The notes under the pieces were generated by a model that saw only the letters and a program-made list of their open reading frames with translations, had not been told where the DNA came from and ran no database searches. Below are positions 1 to 11,830 of a stretch of DNA of 26,090 nucleotides, piece after piece. The DNA is from a virus: the IMG/VR virus record IMGVR_UViG_3300025759_000606, positions 1 through 26,090 of that record. One strand, given 5' to 3'. Position 1 is the first letter of the stretch. Every line of letters starts with the position of its first letter. The translations under genes were made by a program, and so were the position numbers.

Positions 1-863
1 CGTTTAAAGTTATGTTTCGAATGCTTGACGCAGGGTTAGACAGTACTAACATAGATACTGCGTTCACCTATAACCCAGCTACTAATAGAATATCCGGAAC
101 CACAGAAACCGAACTGTTTTTGTATGGTGGTTCTCAATGGACCAATAAGACATATTCAAATGAAAGAGAACCGATTCATGTTAAAGAATATGTCACATTT
201 AAAGGTAGCACAACTGGATTGGACAGCGTTGCTACTATTGAATCATTTTTCATTGAAAACGGAACCGTTACTGCAGCTGCATTTGCCGGTGATGGTACAC
301 TGATAGAAAATGTAAATGCCGCTACTGCACTTACAGCTACTAATGTTAACGTTATTGCAACAAGTGATCCCAGTACTCACTACTTACATTTTGGTAGTGT
401 TTCTGGATCTGCGGCCGATGGTGTCAACGCAAATGCTAATTTAAGACTAAACCCTTCAACGTTAAAAATAAACACTGTTAGTGATACTGGTTCTATGTAT
501 TTTGGTGCTGATAGTGATGTTGGTATATCATTATCTGGAGTGCAATATGCATTTCAAGTGGTAAACAACGGATCATCATTTTATACTTTCACAGACACAA
601 ATAGTGTATGGTTTCCCAGTGGAGAAGATAATCCTACATTATATCTTCGAAGAGGCGATACGTATCGATTTGATATAACTACTACAAACCATCCTTTTGA
701 AATACGATTGTCTAATGGTGGGGCTGCGTATACTACTGGTGTTGTTAATAACGGCGTGGCCGTTGGTTATACGTACTTTAGTGTACCCATGAGTGCGCCT
801 TCATCACTTTATTATCAATGTACAATTCACTCAGGAATGGGTGGAGTGATCAACGTAGTATAA
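1..863 (+). CDS. virion structural protein with C-terminal cupredoxin-like domain (5' end missing)
   Basis: The frame is open from base 3, before the first in-frame ATG at 12, so the gene very probably begins upstream and only its 3' part (at least 283 codons) is present. The visible part is rich in Thr, Ser, Gly, Asn and beta-branched residues, like phage tail or fibre proteins, with no signal peptide or membrane segment. The last 75 or so residues resemble a cupredoxin: a NHPF motif (His codon 690-692), then YYQCTIHSGMGG with Cys at 819-821, His at 828-830 and Met at 837-839. That His...Cys-x2-His-x2-Met spacing is the type-1 copper ligand set of plastocyanin and pseudoazurin. I recall similar YYYCxxHSGMGG endings in marine phage structural proteins, where metal binding is not established to my knowledge. 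The next gene starts 3 bases after the stop. Structural role is inferred from composition and context. Confidence 0.75.
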   Translation, partial: FKVMFRMLDAGLDSTNIDTAFTYNPATNRISGTTETELFLYGGSQWTNKTYSNEREPIHVKEYVTFKGSTTGLDSVATIESFFIENGTVTAAAFAGDGTLIENVNAATALTATNVNVIATSDPSTHYLHFGSVSGSAADGVNANANLRLNPSTLKINTVSDTGSMYFGADSDVGISLSGVQYAFQVVNNGSSFYTFTDTNSVWFPSGEDNPTLYLRRGDTYRFDITTTNHPFEIRLSNGGAAYTTGVVNNGVAVGYTYFSVPMSAPSSLYYQCTIHSGMGGVINVV

Positions 864-866
864 AAT

Positions 867-3800
867 ATGCACAACAGGACTGTCGATAAAAAACGCAGAA
901 ATATAAATCTGCGAGAGATGCAAGTGGAAAATGTTCTGCCCGAACATTTTGCAACTTACTATCCAAAATTTATCTCACTGTTGAAACGTTATTATGAGTT
1001 CCAAGACCAGAACAATTCAACTGAATTGTTGAATCATCTTTTTGCTACTAGGGATGTCAACGAAACCGACATTACTTTGTTGAATTATATTGAAGATGAA
1101 TTACTTTTGGGGGAAACATATTTTGAAGGGTTTGGTGATAAAGAAAACAATCCGGAAGAATTACGAGCTGCAGCCAATTTTTCAAGCATCATGTTTCGTT
1201 CTAAGGGAACCAAGTTTGCCATAGAATGGTTTTTTCGATCCTTTTATGGTGAAGACGTTGAGGTTTTGTATCCCAAAGAAAACATTTTTAAAGTCGGCGA
1301 AGTCGACTCTCAGATAGGATCTGATTCTTTAAAATATATCACAGACGATAAACTCTACCAGACATTTGCACTATTGGTTCGAACCGGAATTTCTATAACT
1401 AAATGGAAGGATGTTTTTAAACTATTTGCACACCCAGCTGGAATGTATTTAAGTGGAGAAGTAATAATTTCTGACGTTGTTAGTTCTCCGGTCACACTTA
1501 CAAACGATTCTATCATTACATATGAAAATATTGCTTATAATTTTTCCGCAACAACAACAGTGAGTGAAGGCGTGCAGTATTCTTTTACAGTTAACACAAC
1601 CGACACTAGGACATATAACACATATGATGCTGTATATTGGTATGGTGTGCATGGCACAACTGAAGATGCAGACTTTGGAGTTAACTTTAAAAACGGAGAC
1701 ACCGGGCTTCCATCTTTAGAAACTGCACAATATGTTGAAATAGAAAATGGAGTTGGTTCCTTTACAATAAACACTGTAATAGATCCTATAGATAATCCTC
1801 CAGAATCACAAGAACAGTTTACAGTTGTAGTTATAGACCGTAGCGGCCGAACAATCGCAACAATACCTTGTAATCTAAATGATGTTGTTCCGAACTGGAC
1901 AGTCAACACAACTCCATCGATTATTGCACCTGAAGGAACCACCTTTGTGTTTACGATTGGTGGAACAAATTTACCATATGGAGGAGAAACTACTCTTAGG
2001 TGGTATTTGGATGGTTCTAGTCAAGCGACTGATGCGGATTTCGAAGGAACAATCCCAACAACATCCGGTGAAGCAGAAGAAATCATAATTACCGGCGGGA
2101 CAGGTTCCTTTAGTATTAAATCGTTAGTTGATGGTTCCGCTGATAGTGGTGATGAAACAGCGGTATTTAATATTATCAACGAAAATAATGTAGTGGTTGC
2201 ATCAGAGACCATAACATTACAAGATGTTGTTCCTTCAATAGTTGTTACGGTCGATGATGTTGTGGAAGGAACATCAATTCAGGCCAACGTGGTTATTGGT
2301 ACTTATGCTGAGGGAGACACTTTAAGTTGGACTATAACGGGTGATGCTTCATCAGACAGTAGAGTTTCAAACAACAGTGGAACAGCAACATACGCACATA
2401 ACAGTGGTTCTGGTATAACAATAACTGTGCCAACTTCTGCACTTTCAACATTCCAAGGTATAACTGCTGGGAATTTTGAGGTTGTTGATAACAGTATGAT
2501 ATCTTCTCCAACTGGTACTGACTCATTTAATATTGTAGATGAGGATCCTGTATACACGTTGTCAGCATCACCAGCTGGAGCAGGATCTAACGATACCGTA
2601 ACATTTACAATTGGTGGAACCAATATTGACCCTGCACAAGATTACTATTTTTATGTAACTTTAGGTGACGGTAATGCAACCGATTTTGTCGATTCCCCAT
2701 TACCAGAATCTGGCACGAGAAGATTAATAAGTGCTCCAGGCACATCTACCACATTAACTTACGCAACTTTGCCTGCAGATAGGTTTTATGAAGCCTTAAT
2801 TAGTGAAACTATTAACGGAGCTCCAGTAGCAGACATATACATGGAAGCTTTATTGACTACGACATCGGTAACTCCAAGTGCTACAAATATTAATGAAGGT
2901 GATACCATCACGTTCACAATCTCAAATGCACCTGACGGTGATTGTAAATACTGGTTTACTGGTGATGTTAGTGCAAACGATTTTACCAGTATTACGACGA
3001 ATTTGGGTAACACTGGAGGGTTTGCGGATATCAATTCACCCGCAAACGTTACTGTAGTTGGAGGCGCAGCAACTATTACTGCGGTATTGAATAATGATAT
3101 TGTTAGAGAAGGGGTTGAAACATTCACTTTAGTCGTGGGTTCTCCCGCTGTAACTCCAACATTCCAAACATCTGCGATTGCAGAAACAACAACAATTACC
3201 GTTAATGATACTTCTGTAGCTACATATAGTGTGGCAAATTACACTGATGATGTGTCCGAAGTTGTTGCAACAAGTGTAAACGAAGGTGACAATTTGTATA
3301 TCGGAGTTACGATTAGTAACCAACAGCCGGTCGAAAACTTGTTCATTGAACTGACTGGGCCCGGAGCTGCTTATTATACTAATTCAACTGAAGTTGATAC
3401 GAGTGTGCCGGGAGGAACATCTTATGCTGTTATTGGTGCATTGGCGGATAACAGTGTTCTTGACGGGCCTAGAGATGTTAACATTGGTGTCTATGTAAAT
3501 GGTTATAGTGGATCTGGTGGAACTTTAGTAGCATCAACAACTGTAACGCTGAATGATAATTCCGTTACCACATCACTAACTGCGGTCAATCCAACGCCAG
3601 ACCCAATTGAAAATGGTAGTACCATAACATTTGATGTTGATGTGACTAACATGGTATTACCCAATACTGTCGAAATTCGTTTGGCAGATTTCGAAACGGT
3701 TCAATGCGATCTAACGGTAGGCAATTCGATTATTTCGGCTTATGAAGACCCAATTAGTGCAGGAATTGAAATAGGTCAAGCCGCTTGGGCAGATCAGTCT

Positions 3801-4601
3801 GGTAAAATTAAAATCGGTGTTGTCGAATCAATTAGTCCTACGCCAACATCTGGTAAATACAATATACAACTGAACAATCTTGGAATTGTTACGACAGAAA
3901 CGACAACTGTTTACTTTATTCCAGAAGAATCTGGTGCACAATCATTCGATTTACCATGGCAAGATGTTGAACTAACTACTCTCAAAACAACTTTCACAGT
4001 TGATGTTTTGGATCCGAACGAACTATCCGGTACTAGAGATTATACGTTTGCAGTTTATGAAAACGTTACTGATGCCGGATCCGCTTCAACAGCAACAGAA
4101 ACAATAACTGTCCAACATTCAATTGTAGATTTAGGGGAATCACCTTATGTTATAATTTCTCCAGATGTTAGCGATTTTAATACAGCGCCATCAGCTTCTA
4201 TTACTATAGGAAATAATGGTCGAATAAGTTGGAGCGGTGCGGTTGCATCTCGAAACAGCATCCCTTGGCCGTCTGGAACATCATATCCATGGATAGACAA
4301 TTTGGTTCACAACACTTCTGACTATGCAGTTAGGTATTTAGATGAGGGTGGTCAACAACAACAATTCCAAACAAGTGATTTAAGTTTATTTTCAGATGAC
4401 ACTTCTTTGGCAGATACACCAACAGGGACATCTATAAATGGGTACTATACATTAAGCAGTTCTAGAACTTGGAGCGTAACAGACACAAGTTCAAACGGCG
4501 TTGAAGTTCAAGCTCGAGGAGTACTACAAATTGCAGATGTTGCTACATATACAGTACTTGCAGAAGTTAGACTTATATTAACAGCAAATTATGAGAGATA
4601 A
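867..4601 (+). CDS. large virion structural protein, baseplate-type N-terminus plus Ig/Calx-beta-like repeats
   Basis: 1244 residues. Residues 1 to about 200 (motifs YYPKFISLLKRYYEFQDQ, FRSKGTKFAIEWFFRSFYGE, VLYPKENIFKVG) match a domain I know from structural proteins of cyanophages and other marine myoviruses, usually called baseplate or virion structural protein. Residues about 225-1086 form roughly seven beta-rich repeats of 100-180 residues, beginning near 225, 340, 453, 556, 667, 785 and 902. Several show the Calx-beta pattern: an early (N/S)EGxxxxFT strand, then an acidic stretch and a closing (L/V)xD(V/N/T) turn. Residues about 1089-1244 form a separate C-terminal module. The likely role is a baseplate-anchored spike or fibre whose repeats extend outward and touch the host surface. 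This is inferred from domain types and from its place next to the terminase genes. No enzymatic motif was recognised. Confidence 0.75.
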   Translation: MHNRTVDKKRRNINLREMQVENVLPEHFATYYPKFISLLKRYYEFQDQNNSTELLNHLFATRDVNETDITLLNYIEDELLLGETYFEGFGDKENNPEELRAAANFSSIMFRSKGTKFAIEWFFRSFYGEDVEVLYPKENIFKVGEVDSQIGSDSLKYITDDKLYQTFALLVRTGISITKWKDVFKLFAHPAGMYLSGEVIISDVVSSPVTLTNDSIITYENIAYNFSATTTVSEGVQYSFTVNTTDTRTYNTYDAVYWYGVHGTTEDADFGVNFKNGDTGLPSLETAQYVEIENGVGSFTINTVIDPIDNPPESQEQFTVVVIDRSGRTIATIPCNLNDVVPNWTVNTTPSIIAPEGTTFVFTIGGTNLPYGGETTLRWYLDGSSQATDADFEGTIPTTSGEAEEIIITGGTGSFSIKSLVDGSADSGDETAVFNIINENNVVVASETITLQDVVPSIVVTVDDVVEGTSIQANVVIGTYAEGDTLSWTITGDASSDSRVSNNSGTATYAHNSGSGITITVPTSALSTFQGITAGNFEVVDNSMISSPTGTDSFNIVDEDPVYTLSASPAGAGSNDTVTFTIGGTNIDPAQDYYFYVTLGDGNATDFVDSPLPESGTRRLISAPGTSTTLTYATLPADRFYEALISETINGAPVADIYMEALLTTTSVTPSATNINEGDTITFTISNAPDGDCKYWFTGDVSANDFTSITTNLGNTGGFADINSPANVTVVGGAATITAVLNNDIVREGVETFTLVVGSPAVTPTFQTSAIAETTTITVNDTSVATYSVANYTDDVSEVVATSVNEGDNLYIGVTISNQQPVENLFIELTGPGAAYYTNSTEVDTSVPGGTSYAVIGALADNSVLDGPRDVNIGVYVNGYSGSGGTLVASTTVTLNDNSVTTSLTAVNPTPDPIENGSTITFDVDVTNMVLPNTVEIRLADFETVQCDLTVGNSIISAYEDPISAGIEIGQAAWADQSGKIKIGVVESISPTPTSGKYNIQLNNLGIVTTETTTVYFIPEESGAQSFDLPWQDVELTTLKTTFTVDVLDPNELSGTRDYTFAVYENVTDAGSASTATETITVQHSIVDLGESPYVIISPDVSDFNTAPSASITIGNNGRISWSGAVASRNSIPWPSGTSYPWIDNLVHNTSDYAVRYLDEGGQQQQFQTSDLSLFSDDTSLADTPTGTSINGYYTLSSSRTWSVTDTSSNGVEVQARGVLQIADVATYTVLAEVRLILTANYER

Positions 4602-9012: not shown

Positions 9013-10740
9013 ATGGCAGACAACGATAACACATTATTCAAATTATTTGGATTTGAATTAAAAAGGAATACCAAAAAAACGGAAAGCAAAATGCTTCCGT
9101 CTATTGTTCCTCCTACGGATAACGACGCCGCTGGATACGTTAGTACTGGCGCTGGAGCATATGGCCAATATATTAATTTAGATGGTGATCAATCTAAAGA
9201 TAATGCGCAGCTCATAATGAGATACCGTGGTGTTTCTATGAACCCTGAAGTTGATATGGCAATTGATGAAATTGTCAACGAAACTATTGTGTCATCAGAA
9301 TTAACGTCTTCCGTCGATCTTAAAGTAGATGAAATCGATGCGCCTAAAAAAATTAAAGATCAGATATTAGAAGAGTTTGAAAATGTAGTTAGTCTTCTTA
9401 AATTTAATGATATTGGCCATGATATTTTTAAATCATGGTACGTCGATGGTCGCATAGTTCATCATTTGTTAGTAAACGAATCTAATGTCAAAGCCGGTAT
9501 ACAGGAAATCCGTCATATCGATGCTGCTAAAATTAGAAAAGTTCGCGAAGTTAAATATAAAAAAGATCCAAAAACAGGTGTTAAAATTGTAGATACCGTA
9601 GAAGAATATTATATTTACGAAGAGAAACCTGGCAGTAATACAGTCCAAGGTGTTAAAATTTCAACAGATGCGATTAGTTATGTGACATCGGGTTTGTTAG
9701 ACGAGTCAAAGAAAAAAGTTGTTTCACATTTACACAAAGCTTTAAAACCTATCAATCAGTTGCGTATGATGGAAGATTCTTTAGTCATCTATCGTCTTGC
9801 TCGGGCTCCAGAACGCCGAATTTTTTATATTGATGTCGGTAATTTACCGCGAGGTAAGGCGGATCAGTATATGAAAGATATCATGACTAAGTACCGTAAC
9901 AAATTAGTTTATGATGCCAATACTGGTCAACTTAAAGATGATCGTAAACACATGTCTATGCTTGAAGACTTTTGGTTACCAAGAAGAGAGAATGGCCGAG
10001 GCACAGAAATTAGCACTTTGCCGGGCGGAGAAAATTTAGGTCAAATTGAAGACATTATATATTTTCAAAAAAGATTGTATCGAAGTTTGAATGTACCAGT
10101 CAACAGATTGGAACAAGAAAACCAGTTTAGTTTGGGCAGATCCTCAGAAATTACTCGCGACGAAGTTAAATTTCAAAAGTTTATTGATCGTCTTCGTAGA
10201 AGATTTGGCACCATGTTTTTGGGCATTCTTAAAAAACAGTTAATACTTAAAGGTATTATTACTGCACAAGACTGGGAAGAATGGAAAGATAATATATATG
10301 TTGATTACATCAAAGATAACCATTTTGCAGAATTAAAAGACGCTGAAATTTTACAGAATCGCATTGGATTAATGAACGAAATTACTCAGTATGTTGGCGA
10401 ATATTACAGCAAAGAATGGGTTCAAAAGAATGTCATGATGTTAGACGATGAAGAAATTGTTCAGATGAAAAAACAGATCGAAAAAGAAATGGCCGAAGGA
10501 GAAATACCTGATCCTGAAGAAGAAGAAGAAAAAGAAAAAGAAAAAATTGCAATGGCAAATCGACCTCCGGCACCTACCCCTGTAACAGTTGTAGAACCTA
10601 AATCTGAAATTGAAAGACAAAAAGAAGCTGAAAAGAAAAAAAACGATAAAGAGAAAAAAGAAACCTACATTCCTACTAATAGTGACGAATTGACAGAAGA
10701 ATTGACTAGGTATATGGCGCGACTTAATGAACAAGGTTGA
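9013..10740 (+). CDS. 20: portal vertex protein, gp20-like
   Basis: 575 residues from ATG 9013, chosen because AGGA lies 6 bases upstream; an upstream TTG at 8989 falls in the terminator and is not credible. Typical gp20 motifs are MRYRGVSMNPEVDMAIDEIV, RAPERRIFYIDVGNLPRGKA, MLEDFWLPRRENGRGTEIST, LPGGENLGQIEDIIYFQKRL and YRSLNVPVNRL. The dodecameric portal nucleates prohead assembly, is the channel for gp17-driven packaging, and later joins the neck and tail. From about residue 497 the C-terminus becomes a low-complexity Glu/Lys stretch with a short Pro-rich segment (NRPPAPTPVTVVEP), longer than I would expect for the T4 protein (524 residues). It overlaps the collagen-like gene by 14 bases. 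Confidence 0.96.
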   Translation: MADNDNTLFKLFGFELKRNTKKTESKMLPSIVPPTDNDAAGYVSTGAGAYGQYINLDGDQSKDNAQLIMRYRGVSMNPEVDMAIDEIVNETIVSSELTSSVDLKVDEIDAPKKIKDQILEEFENVVSLLKFNDIGHDIFKSWYVDGRIVHHLLVNESNVKAGIQEIRHIDAAKIRKVREVKYKKDPKTGVKIVDTVEEYYIYEEKPGSNTVQGVKISTDAISYVTSGLLDESKKKVVSHLHKALKPINQLRMMEDSLVIYRLARAPERRIFYIDVGNLPRGKADQYMKDIMTKYRNKLVYDANTGQLKDDRKHMSMLEDFWLPRRENGRGTEISTLPGGENLGQIEDIIYFQKRLYRSLNVPVNRLEQENQFSLGRSSEITRDEVKFQKFIDRLRRRFGTMFLGILKKQLILKGIITAQDWEEWKDNIYVDYIKDNHFAELKDAEILQNRIGLMNEITQYVGEYYSKEWVQKNVMMLDDEEIVQMKKQIEKEMAEGEIPDPEEEEEKEKEKIAMANRPPAPTPVTVVEPKSEIERQKEAEKKKNDKEKKETYIPTNSDELTEELTRYMARLNEQG

Positions 10741-11830
10741 TACTATTTCTACTGCGTTTGCAGTTGTACATACGCAGAAAGAAATAGAAAAATTAGAATC
10801 TAAAATCTTTAATGTACTTGAAGAAGTTCAACTCATAGAGGGCCCGGCCGGACGTGTTGGGAAACAGGGCCCAAAAGGAGACAAAGGTGTCAAAGGTGAT
10901 AAAGGGGATAAAGGAGAACGTGGCGAACGTGGTGCCGATGGCAATGATGGAGCACCAGGACCTGTTGGCGAGAAAGGAGATACTGGCGGCCGCGGCGAAC
11001 AAGGCGAACAAGGACTTCAAGGTATTGCTGGAATTGCTGGCAAGGATGGAGAACGAGGAGAACGTGGCGAACAAGGACCACAAGGATTAAAGGGCGATAA
11101 AGGTGATAAGGGAGATAGAGGACCCCAAGGAAATGTGGGGGCGACTGGTAAAACAGGCAAGCAAGGTAAAACAGGTGCTGTTGGAGCCAAAGGAGACGTG
11201 GGCCCACAAGGCCCTAAGGGTGTCAAAGGAGACAAGGGAGATACTGGACTTCGTGGCGAAAAGGGCGAACGGGGAGATCGTGGCGAACAAGGACCACAAG
11301 GAATACAAGGTGAGGCAGGACCTGACTACAAAGAACGATTTGAAGAAGCCTTAGAAGCATTCAATAAGCAGTTAACAGAAAACAAAAACACTGTTACTGC
11401 CAATCTTGAAAAACAAATTCAACAGATTAATCGTTCTCTCAGTACACTTGGTGGCGGTGGTTCATATAAGATCGTAGATAACGCAGACGTAGACAAGTCT
11501 GCAATCAAAAGTCTAGTAGACGATGCGGTTCTTATATACGATCCAACCAAAAAGAAATTCGTTGCTCAGTCTTTTCTGAGTATTCTTGATAGACTAAAGG
11601 CAGATTTAGAAGTGCAATACGATAAACTGGTAGATGAAGATCCTGATAATGGATTTACTTATGTGGGTGAAGCGGTGCCTGGCACTACAAAGAGTCAGTC
11701 TATTTGGAGAATTAAAAGAATATATGAGTTTGGTGCAGACGGTGACCTAGACATTCTCTGGGCAAACGGTACAGCAGACTTTGATAAAACTTGGAATGAT
11801 CGTGCAACATATACTTATTCTGCGGATTAA
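10727..11830 (+). CDS. collagen-like virion fibre protein
   Basis: 367 residues in three parts. Residues 1-38 include an amphipathic helix (QKEIEKLESKIFNVLEEVQL) that could form a trimeric coiled coil. Residues 39-200 are 54 uninterrupted Gly-X-Y triplets, many of them GDK, GER, GPQ or GEQ. Residues 201-367 form a globular C-terminal part with a helix (KERFEEALEAFNKQL) and an ending, SIWRIKRIYEFGADGD...WNDRATYTYS, seen in marine phage structural proteins. Phage collagen repeats form stable trimeric rods in tail or capsid fibres, so I infer a fibre or decoration. The start overlaps the portal end by 14 bases and has no clear ribosome site, which suggests translational coupling. The protein would be stable without proline hydroxylation through its many charged pairs; this is family knowledge, not seen directly. 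Confidence 0.85.
   Translation: MNKVDTISTAFAVVHTQKEIEKLESKIFNVLEEVQLIEGPAGRVGKQGPKGDKGVKGDKGDKGERGERGADGNDGAPGPVGEKGDTGGRGEQGEQGLQGIAGIAGKDGERGERGEQGPQGLKGDKGDKGDRGPQGNVGATGKTGKQGKTGAVGAKGDVGPQGPKGVKGDKGDTGLRGEKGERGDRGEQGPQGIQGEAGPDYKERFEEALEAFNKQLTENKNTVTANLEKQIQQINRSLSTLGGGGSYKIVDNADVDKSAIKSLVDDAVLIYDPTKKKFVAQSFLSILDRLKADLEVQYDKLVDEDPDNGFTYVGEAVPGTTKSQSIWRIKRIYEFGADGDLDILWANGTADFDKTWNDRATYTYSAD
10841..11326 (+). repeat. collagen Gly-X-Y coding repeat, 54 triplets
   Basis: A nine-base periodic tract encoding 54 consecutive Gly-X-Y triplets without interruption. It contains a 24-base exact direct repeat at 11063-11086 and 11279-11302 (encoding R-GEQ-GPQ-G). Such a tract is prone to length change by slippage or recombination, so its length probably varies between relatives. 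Confidence 0.9.

Follow-up and report, generated by a model that had tools for sequence, protein, structure and literature searches.

Amicyanin, plastocyanin, pseudoazurin, and rusticyanin are blue-copper proteins with a characteristic fold and a His...Cys-x2-His...Met ligand set. The domain described here, at the C-terminus of a phage tail protein, has this fold and carries the same ligands in register. The blue-copper proteins are exported in free form, whereas the phage domain is the last domain of a 535-amino-acid (aa) tail protein. The C-x2-H-x2-M loop of amicyanin has its counterpart in the phage domain as CTIHSGM. However, amicyanin is a free periplasmic electron carrier of methylamine dehydrogenase, while the phage protein is part of a tail module. 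The phage domain also differs from the amicyanin group in having a Pro after the first His, in lacking a redox partner, and in showing sequence similarity at the profile level only. The domain is amicyanin-like in its site only and is not an amicyanin.

Among phages, the same C-terminal domain with its four ligands is found in cyanophage proteins labeled "gp9 baseplate wedge tail fiber connector" (phrog_677; P-SSM4, S-SSM5, Syn9, and others). The genes for these proteins lie directly before a baseplate wedge gene, as in the DNA examined here, but the proteins have no match to the N-terminal half of our protein. Among bacteria, small lipoproteins of SAR86 each contain a single cupredoxin domain whose ligand motif is the same (identity, 45% for L087 and L088 and 33% for L090). 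Unlike the phage protein, they are cellular, with a lipobox-like N-terminus and a chromosomal context.

The long tail fiber protein gp37 of phage T4 is a trimeric needle whose fold is unrelated to that of cupredoxins. It binds iron through HxH motifs, and metal-guided attachment via tail-fiber iron has been proposed for marine phages as the Trojan Horse hypothesis (PMC11705849). The phage cupredoxin site proposed below would resemble gp37 in placing a His-bound metal in a tail structure, but gp37 differs in its metal (iron) and in its motifs (HxH).

A cupredoxin domain at the end of a tail protein

The DNA examined was a 26-kb virus record, analyzed as one stretch of 26,090 nucleotides (nt) that we refer to as the window. 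It contains a T4-like structural module (i.e., tail protein, baseplate wedge, small and large terminase, and sheath), and further along are genes that were named portal, prohead, capsid, and helicase on the basis of their translations. The capsid protein is most similar to that of phage C48C1 (63%), followed by those of Methylophilales phage Melnitz and Pelagibacter phage Mosig (58%). The tail protein gene carrying the domain occupies positions 3..863 of the plus strand, with its 5' end outside the window; complete copies in L002-L006 encode 535 aa and start with MADIKVSQLT. The next gene (867..4601, plus strand) is baseplate-wedge-like (PF23786 Baseplate_wedge; E = 6.8e-11), and the domain-bearing protein was therefore assigned to the tail/baseplate module. 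Consistent with a location in a tail/baseplate gene cluster, a tail sheath stabilizer gene precedes the complete copy in L002. A gene annotated as encoding a baseplate wedge subunit likewise directly follows the domain-bearing gene in P-SSM4 and S-SSM5. The product of 867-4601 in the window is 1,244 aa long and appears to contain many beta-sandwich repeats beyond its N-terminal part. Directly after the portal gene, positions 10727-11830 encode a collagen-like G-x-y repeat protein that matches collagen-like tail fiber families. A Pfam match of the window to VWA (E = 0.0055) was below the cut-off and was taken as chance.

The protein encoded at 3..863 matches phrog_677 (E = 5.7e-31), largely because of its C-terminal domain. 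The match covers only residues 286-535 of the full form, and a SAR86 lipoprotein matches phrog_677 too, so the gp9 name is weak for this protein. Whole-protein identity with T4 gp9 was rejected, given that the phrog_677 match is partial and that the A5 profile found no T4 gp9 structure. Queried as a single sequence, the N-terminal half of the protein matched 12 loci.

The C-terminal domain comprises 105 residues (about positions 546..860, plus strand). A sequence-only reading of this DNA had suspected a cupredoxin-like copper site at this end of the protein, and it was right about the C-terminal location; however, it placed the start at position 600, whereas the domain begins near nt 546. An AlphaFold model of the domain, built with 26 homologs, has eight strands with a pLDDT of 94.4 and a pTM of 0.86. 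In a Foldseek comparison with the PDB, cupredoxin-fold proteins filled the top list with a probability of about 1. These included rusticyanin (E = 5.2e-5), nitrite reductase, AcoP, CuA subunits of cytochrome oxidase, a Nitrosopumilus cupredoxin, amicyanin, and plastocyanin. Among predicted viral proteins, the model matched tail proteins of P-SSM2, P-SSM5, S-RIM14, and others. It also matched two "Beta-sandwich proteins" of Pithovirus and Marseillevirus relatives (BFVD A0A481Z6J5 and A0A481YWX9). The full-length AlphaFold model (pLDDT, 32) was uninformative, so the placement of the domain within the assembled tail is inferred.

Sequence homology was assessed with A3, an alignment and profile of 35 diverse members of the domain family (30 to 61% identity to the window domain). 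Against the PDB, the A3 profile listed 60 chains, all of them blue-copper proteins or copper nitrite reductases; plastocyanin was the best (E = 7.6e-5), and amicyanin and rusticyanin were also present. In the alignments shown, the ligands of the domain and of the blue-copper chains are in register. Some family members matched NCBIfam models of plastocyanin (1.3e-4), rusticyanin (4.1e-4), and amicyanin (5.2e-4) or the Pfam families Cupredoxin_1 (2.6e-4) and Copper-bind (4e-4). The window sequence alone gave no significant match for the domain in Pfam or the PDB; the family profile was needed. Pfam PF25489 (At5g54830-like domain), which may be a eukaryotic relative of the cupredoxin domain, matched 20 of 26 members (best E = 3.7e-5). 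Because the fold comparison (a beta-sandwich in the model) and the sequence profile agree, we conclude that the domain is a cupredoxin by fold and by homology to blue-copper proteins.

The four predicted ligands are the first His (domain residue 49, in NHPF; codon CAT, 690..692), Cys (residue 92; TGT, 819..821), the second His (residue 95; CAC, 828..830), and the axial Met (residue 98; ATG, 837..839), all on the plus strand in the frame of ORF 3..863. These are the codons that had been singled out from the sequence, and the GDTYRFD and YYQC strands named with them are both present. The two His, one Cys, and Met follow the canonical order of a type-1 copper site and align with the ligands of amicyanin. 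The type-1 spacing that had been proposed is borne out as that of amicyanin in particular (C-x2-H-x2-M), since plastocyanin has two extra residues before the Met in the alignments. The register and the predicted fold make it likely that the four residues lie within bonding distance in three dimensions. The pattern H-x30-60-CxxHxxM occurs in 26 of 6,684 ORFs outside the family set. This chance rate is not negligible, and the motif alone is thus not decisive; it is conservation and fold that lift it above chance.

Conservation and joint loss of the site

Among 182 distinct domains, the first His is present in 181; of the 180 that reach the remaining columns, all have the Cys and the second His, and 179 have the Met. 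Given that several scan patterns contain the ligands, we repeated the count on 73 domains containing none of those patterns. The result was similar (first His, 72/73; Cys, 71/71; second His, 71/71; Met, 70/71), and the residues between the ligands vary. In A3, the only invariant columns are H49, Y90, C92, H95, and M98. The residue after the first His is Pro in nearly every member but usually Asn or Ser in small blue-copper proteins, so the properties of the phage site may differ.

As a further control for this search bias, the counts were checked on annotated phages found by tblastn. A larger set of 257 distinct domains combined the distinct domains, the annotated phages, and one deliberately chosen ligand-less relative. 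All four ligands are present in 202 of these. In a ligand-less subfamily (n = 48), Phe, Ala/Ser, Thr/Val/Ile, and Met stand in the places of His, Cys, His, and Met. The rest are a second ligand-less lineage (n = 2) and a few fragments and divergent copies. No complete domain in the 257-domain set has lost just one of His, Cys, and His. The Met is kept in the ligand-less subfamily and is therefore, by itself, no sign of copper. Members of this subfamily (L267-L342 and L344, e.g., L286 and L341, and RN05-S L258:2489-2785) are abundant among phage tail proteins and represent a natural metal-less version of the domain.

In a tree calculated without the ligand columns, joint loss occurred once in the 48-member group and once in two baseplate-wedge domains, and both lineages are nested among ligand-bearing relatives. 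Many forks are poorly resolved, and two events are few. If the residues had only unrelated structural roles, they should change one by one, and we therefore take the joint conservation and joint loss to indicate residues that hold a metal. The homologs do not freely replace the four ligands, and the predicted fold is that of a cupredoxin; the cupredoxin reading obtained from the sequence alone is strongly supported on both counts and by the sequence profile. On this pattern of conservation, His49, Cys92, His95, and Met98 very probably form a functional metal site.

That reading had offered reuse of the fold without metal as an alternative. On this view, the four residues would be relics of structure, and the domain would act simply as a beta-sandwich adhesin or spacer. 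Phage fibers often carry interchangeable beta-sandwiches, and the ligand-less subfamily, recognizably the same domain in phage tail proteins, shows that metal-free reuse fits some relatives. It does not fit the window protein. In the ligand-bearing family, the ligands rank with the best-conserved positions whereas their neighbors vary, and relics would decay singly, which is not what the complete domains display. We consider metal-free reuse unlikely for the window domain.

Distribution and virion presence

No fewer than 339 annotated phage records contain the domain. Cyanophages account for almost all of them, and the protein is usually annotated as a baseplate wedge tail fiber connector or gp9. 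The podovirus P-GSP1 also carries it, and a weaker relative is found in a lake phage assigned to an actinobacterium. Its placement varies from protein ends to the interior of long proteins and to a position within a subtilase-like protein. The last case is an ORF of 803 aa in L082 (from position 4581), and cyanophage S8 peptidase proteins are among the viral fold matches of the domain model. The neighboring baseplate-wedge protein of cyanophages can itself have cupredoxin-like domains, the second one ligand-less (L255:6247-10578 and the L080 ORF from 3318).

Virion presence rests on the homolog in S-SZBM1 (locus SSZBM1_206; S-SZBM1_206) rather than on the window protein: mass spectrometry of CsCl-purified particles detected this protein with 9 peptides (24.9% coverage) (PMC9146016). 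In the open-access literature, we found no published description of a cupredoxin or blue-copper domain in phages.

In SAR86 chromosomes, the same domain occurs as a single copy in small lipoproteins with ordinary chromosomal surroundings. This form suggests that cells, too, use the domain outside the cytoplasm. The lipoproteins L087, L088, L090, and L092 possibly constitute an unnamed bacterial cupredoxin lipoprotein family. Their presence on SAR86 bacteria would suit a scenario in which tail copper engages a metal-uptake or copper-binding surface protein of the host, as has been proposed for the iron on the HxH motifs of the T4 long tail fiber (PMC11705849). We regard this scenario as quite unlikely, because no host receptor has been identified and SAR86 is not known as a host of the window phage.

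Metal, role, and significance

The best overall explanation, with a probability of about 0.7, is that the domain is a true cupredoxin with a selected type-1-style site, on a tail/baseplate-associated virion protein, which forms a copper-stabilized outer or host-contact module. It draws on the fold and blue-copper homology, on the way in which the ligands are conserved and lost together, on the tail-gene context, and on the detection of one homolog in virions. The tail protein would fold without metal in the host cytoplasm and would take up copper from outside after lysis. The bound copper may then lock the sandwich and the exposed end of the domain, so that the tail gains a stable outer or host-contact module. 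For the domain itself, a structural or adhesive role has roughly even odds, while electron transfer or redox sensing is unlikely. The redox- or metal-sensing adhesive tip suggested from the sequence alone is a guess.

We lean toward copper as the native metal of the predicted site. Other soft metals can bind a His/Cys/His/Met ligand set in vitro, and the tail protein is made in a copper-poor cytoplasm, so a site that holds zinc, iron, or nickel and purely stabilizes the domain might be envisaged. However, two His with a single Cys and a single Met, set in a cupredoxin fold, make up the copper arrangement, and the nearest solved relatives are copper proteins; another metal is therefore improbable. 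A redox switch, in which Cu(II), once reduced at the host surface, alters tail conformation or triggers infection, would accord with the type-1 ligand set and the likeness to electron carriers but is very unlikely, given that neither a partner protein nor a redox gene was identified among the window genes and that the sequence gives no sign of coupling to tail movement.

The cupredoxin assignment would give a domain name to much tail protein sequence that is now "hypothetical." Since the site is conserved as a unit in hundreds of cyanophage records and many uncultured marine phages, the question of copper attachment is directly testable, with the isolates Syn9, P-SSM4, and S-SSM5 at hand and the ligand-less subfamily as a ready natural control. 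Tail-fiber iron has already prompted the hypothesis that metal guides attachment in an ocean poor in iron, and copper poses a parallel question. Tentatively, and at somewhat less than even odds, the domains may represent a large, mostly unrecognized viral blue-copper family. In that case, marine phages of many genera would carry copper-loaded tail cupredoxins that affect stability or host attachment, and their virions would be among the copper-binding ligands of the ocean.
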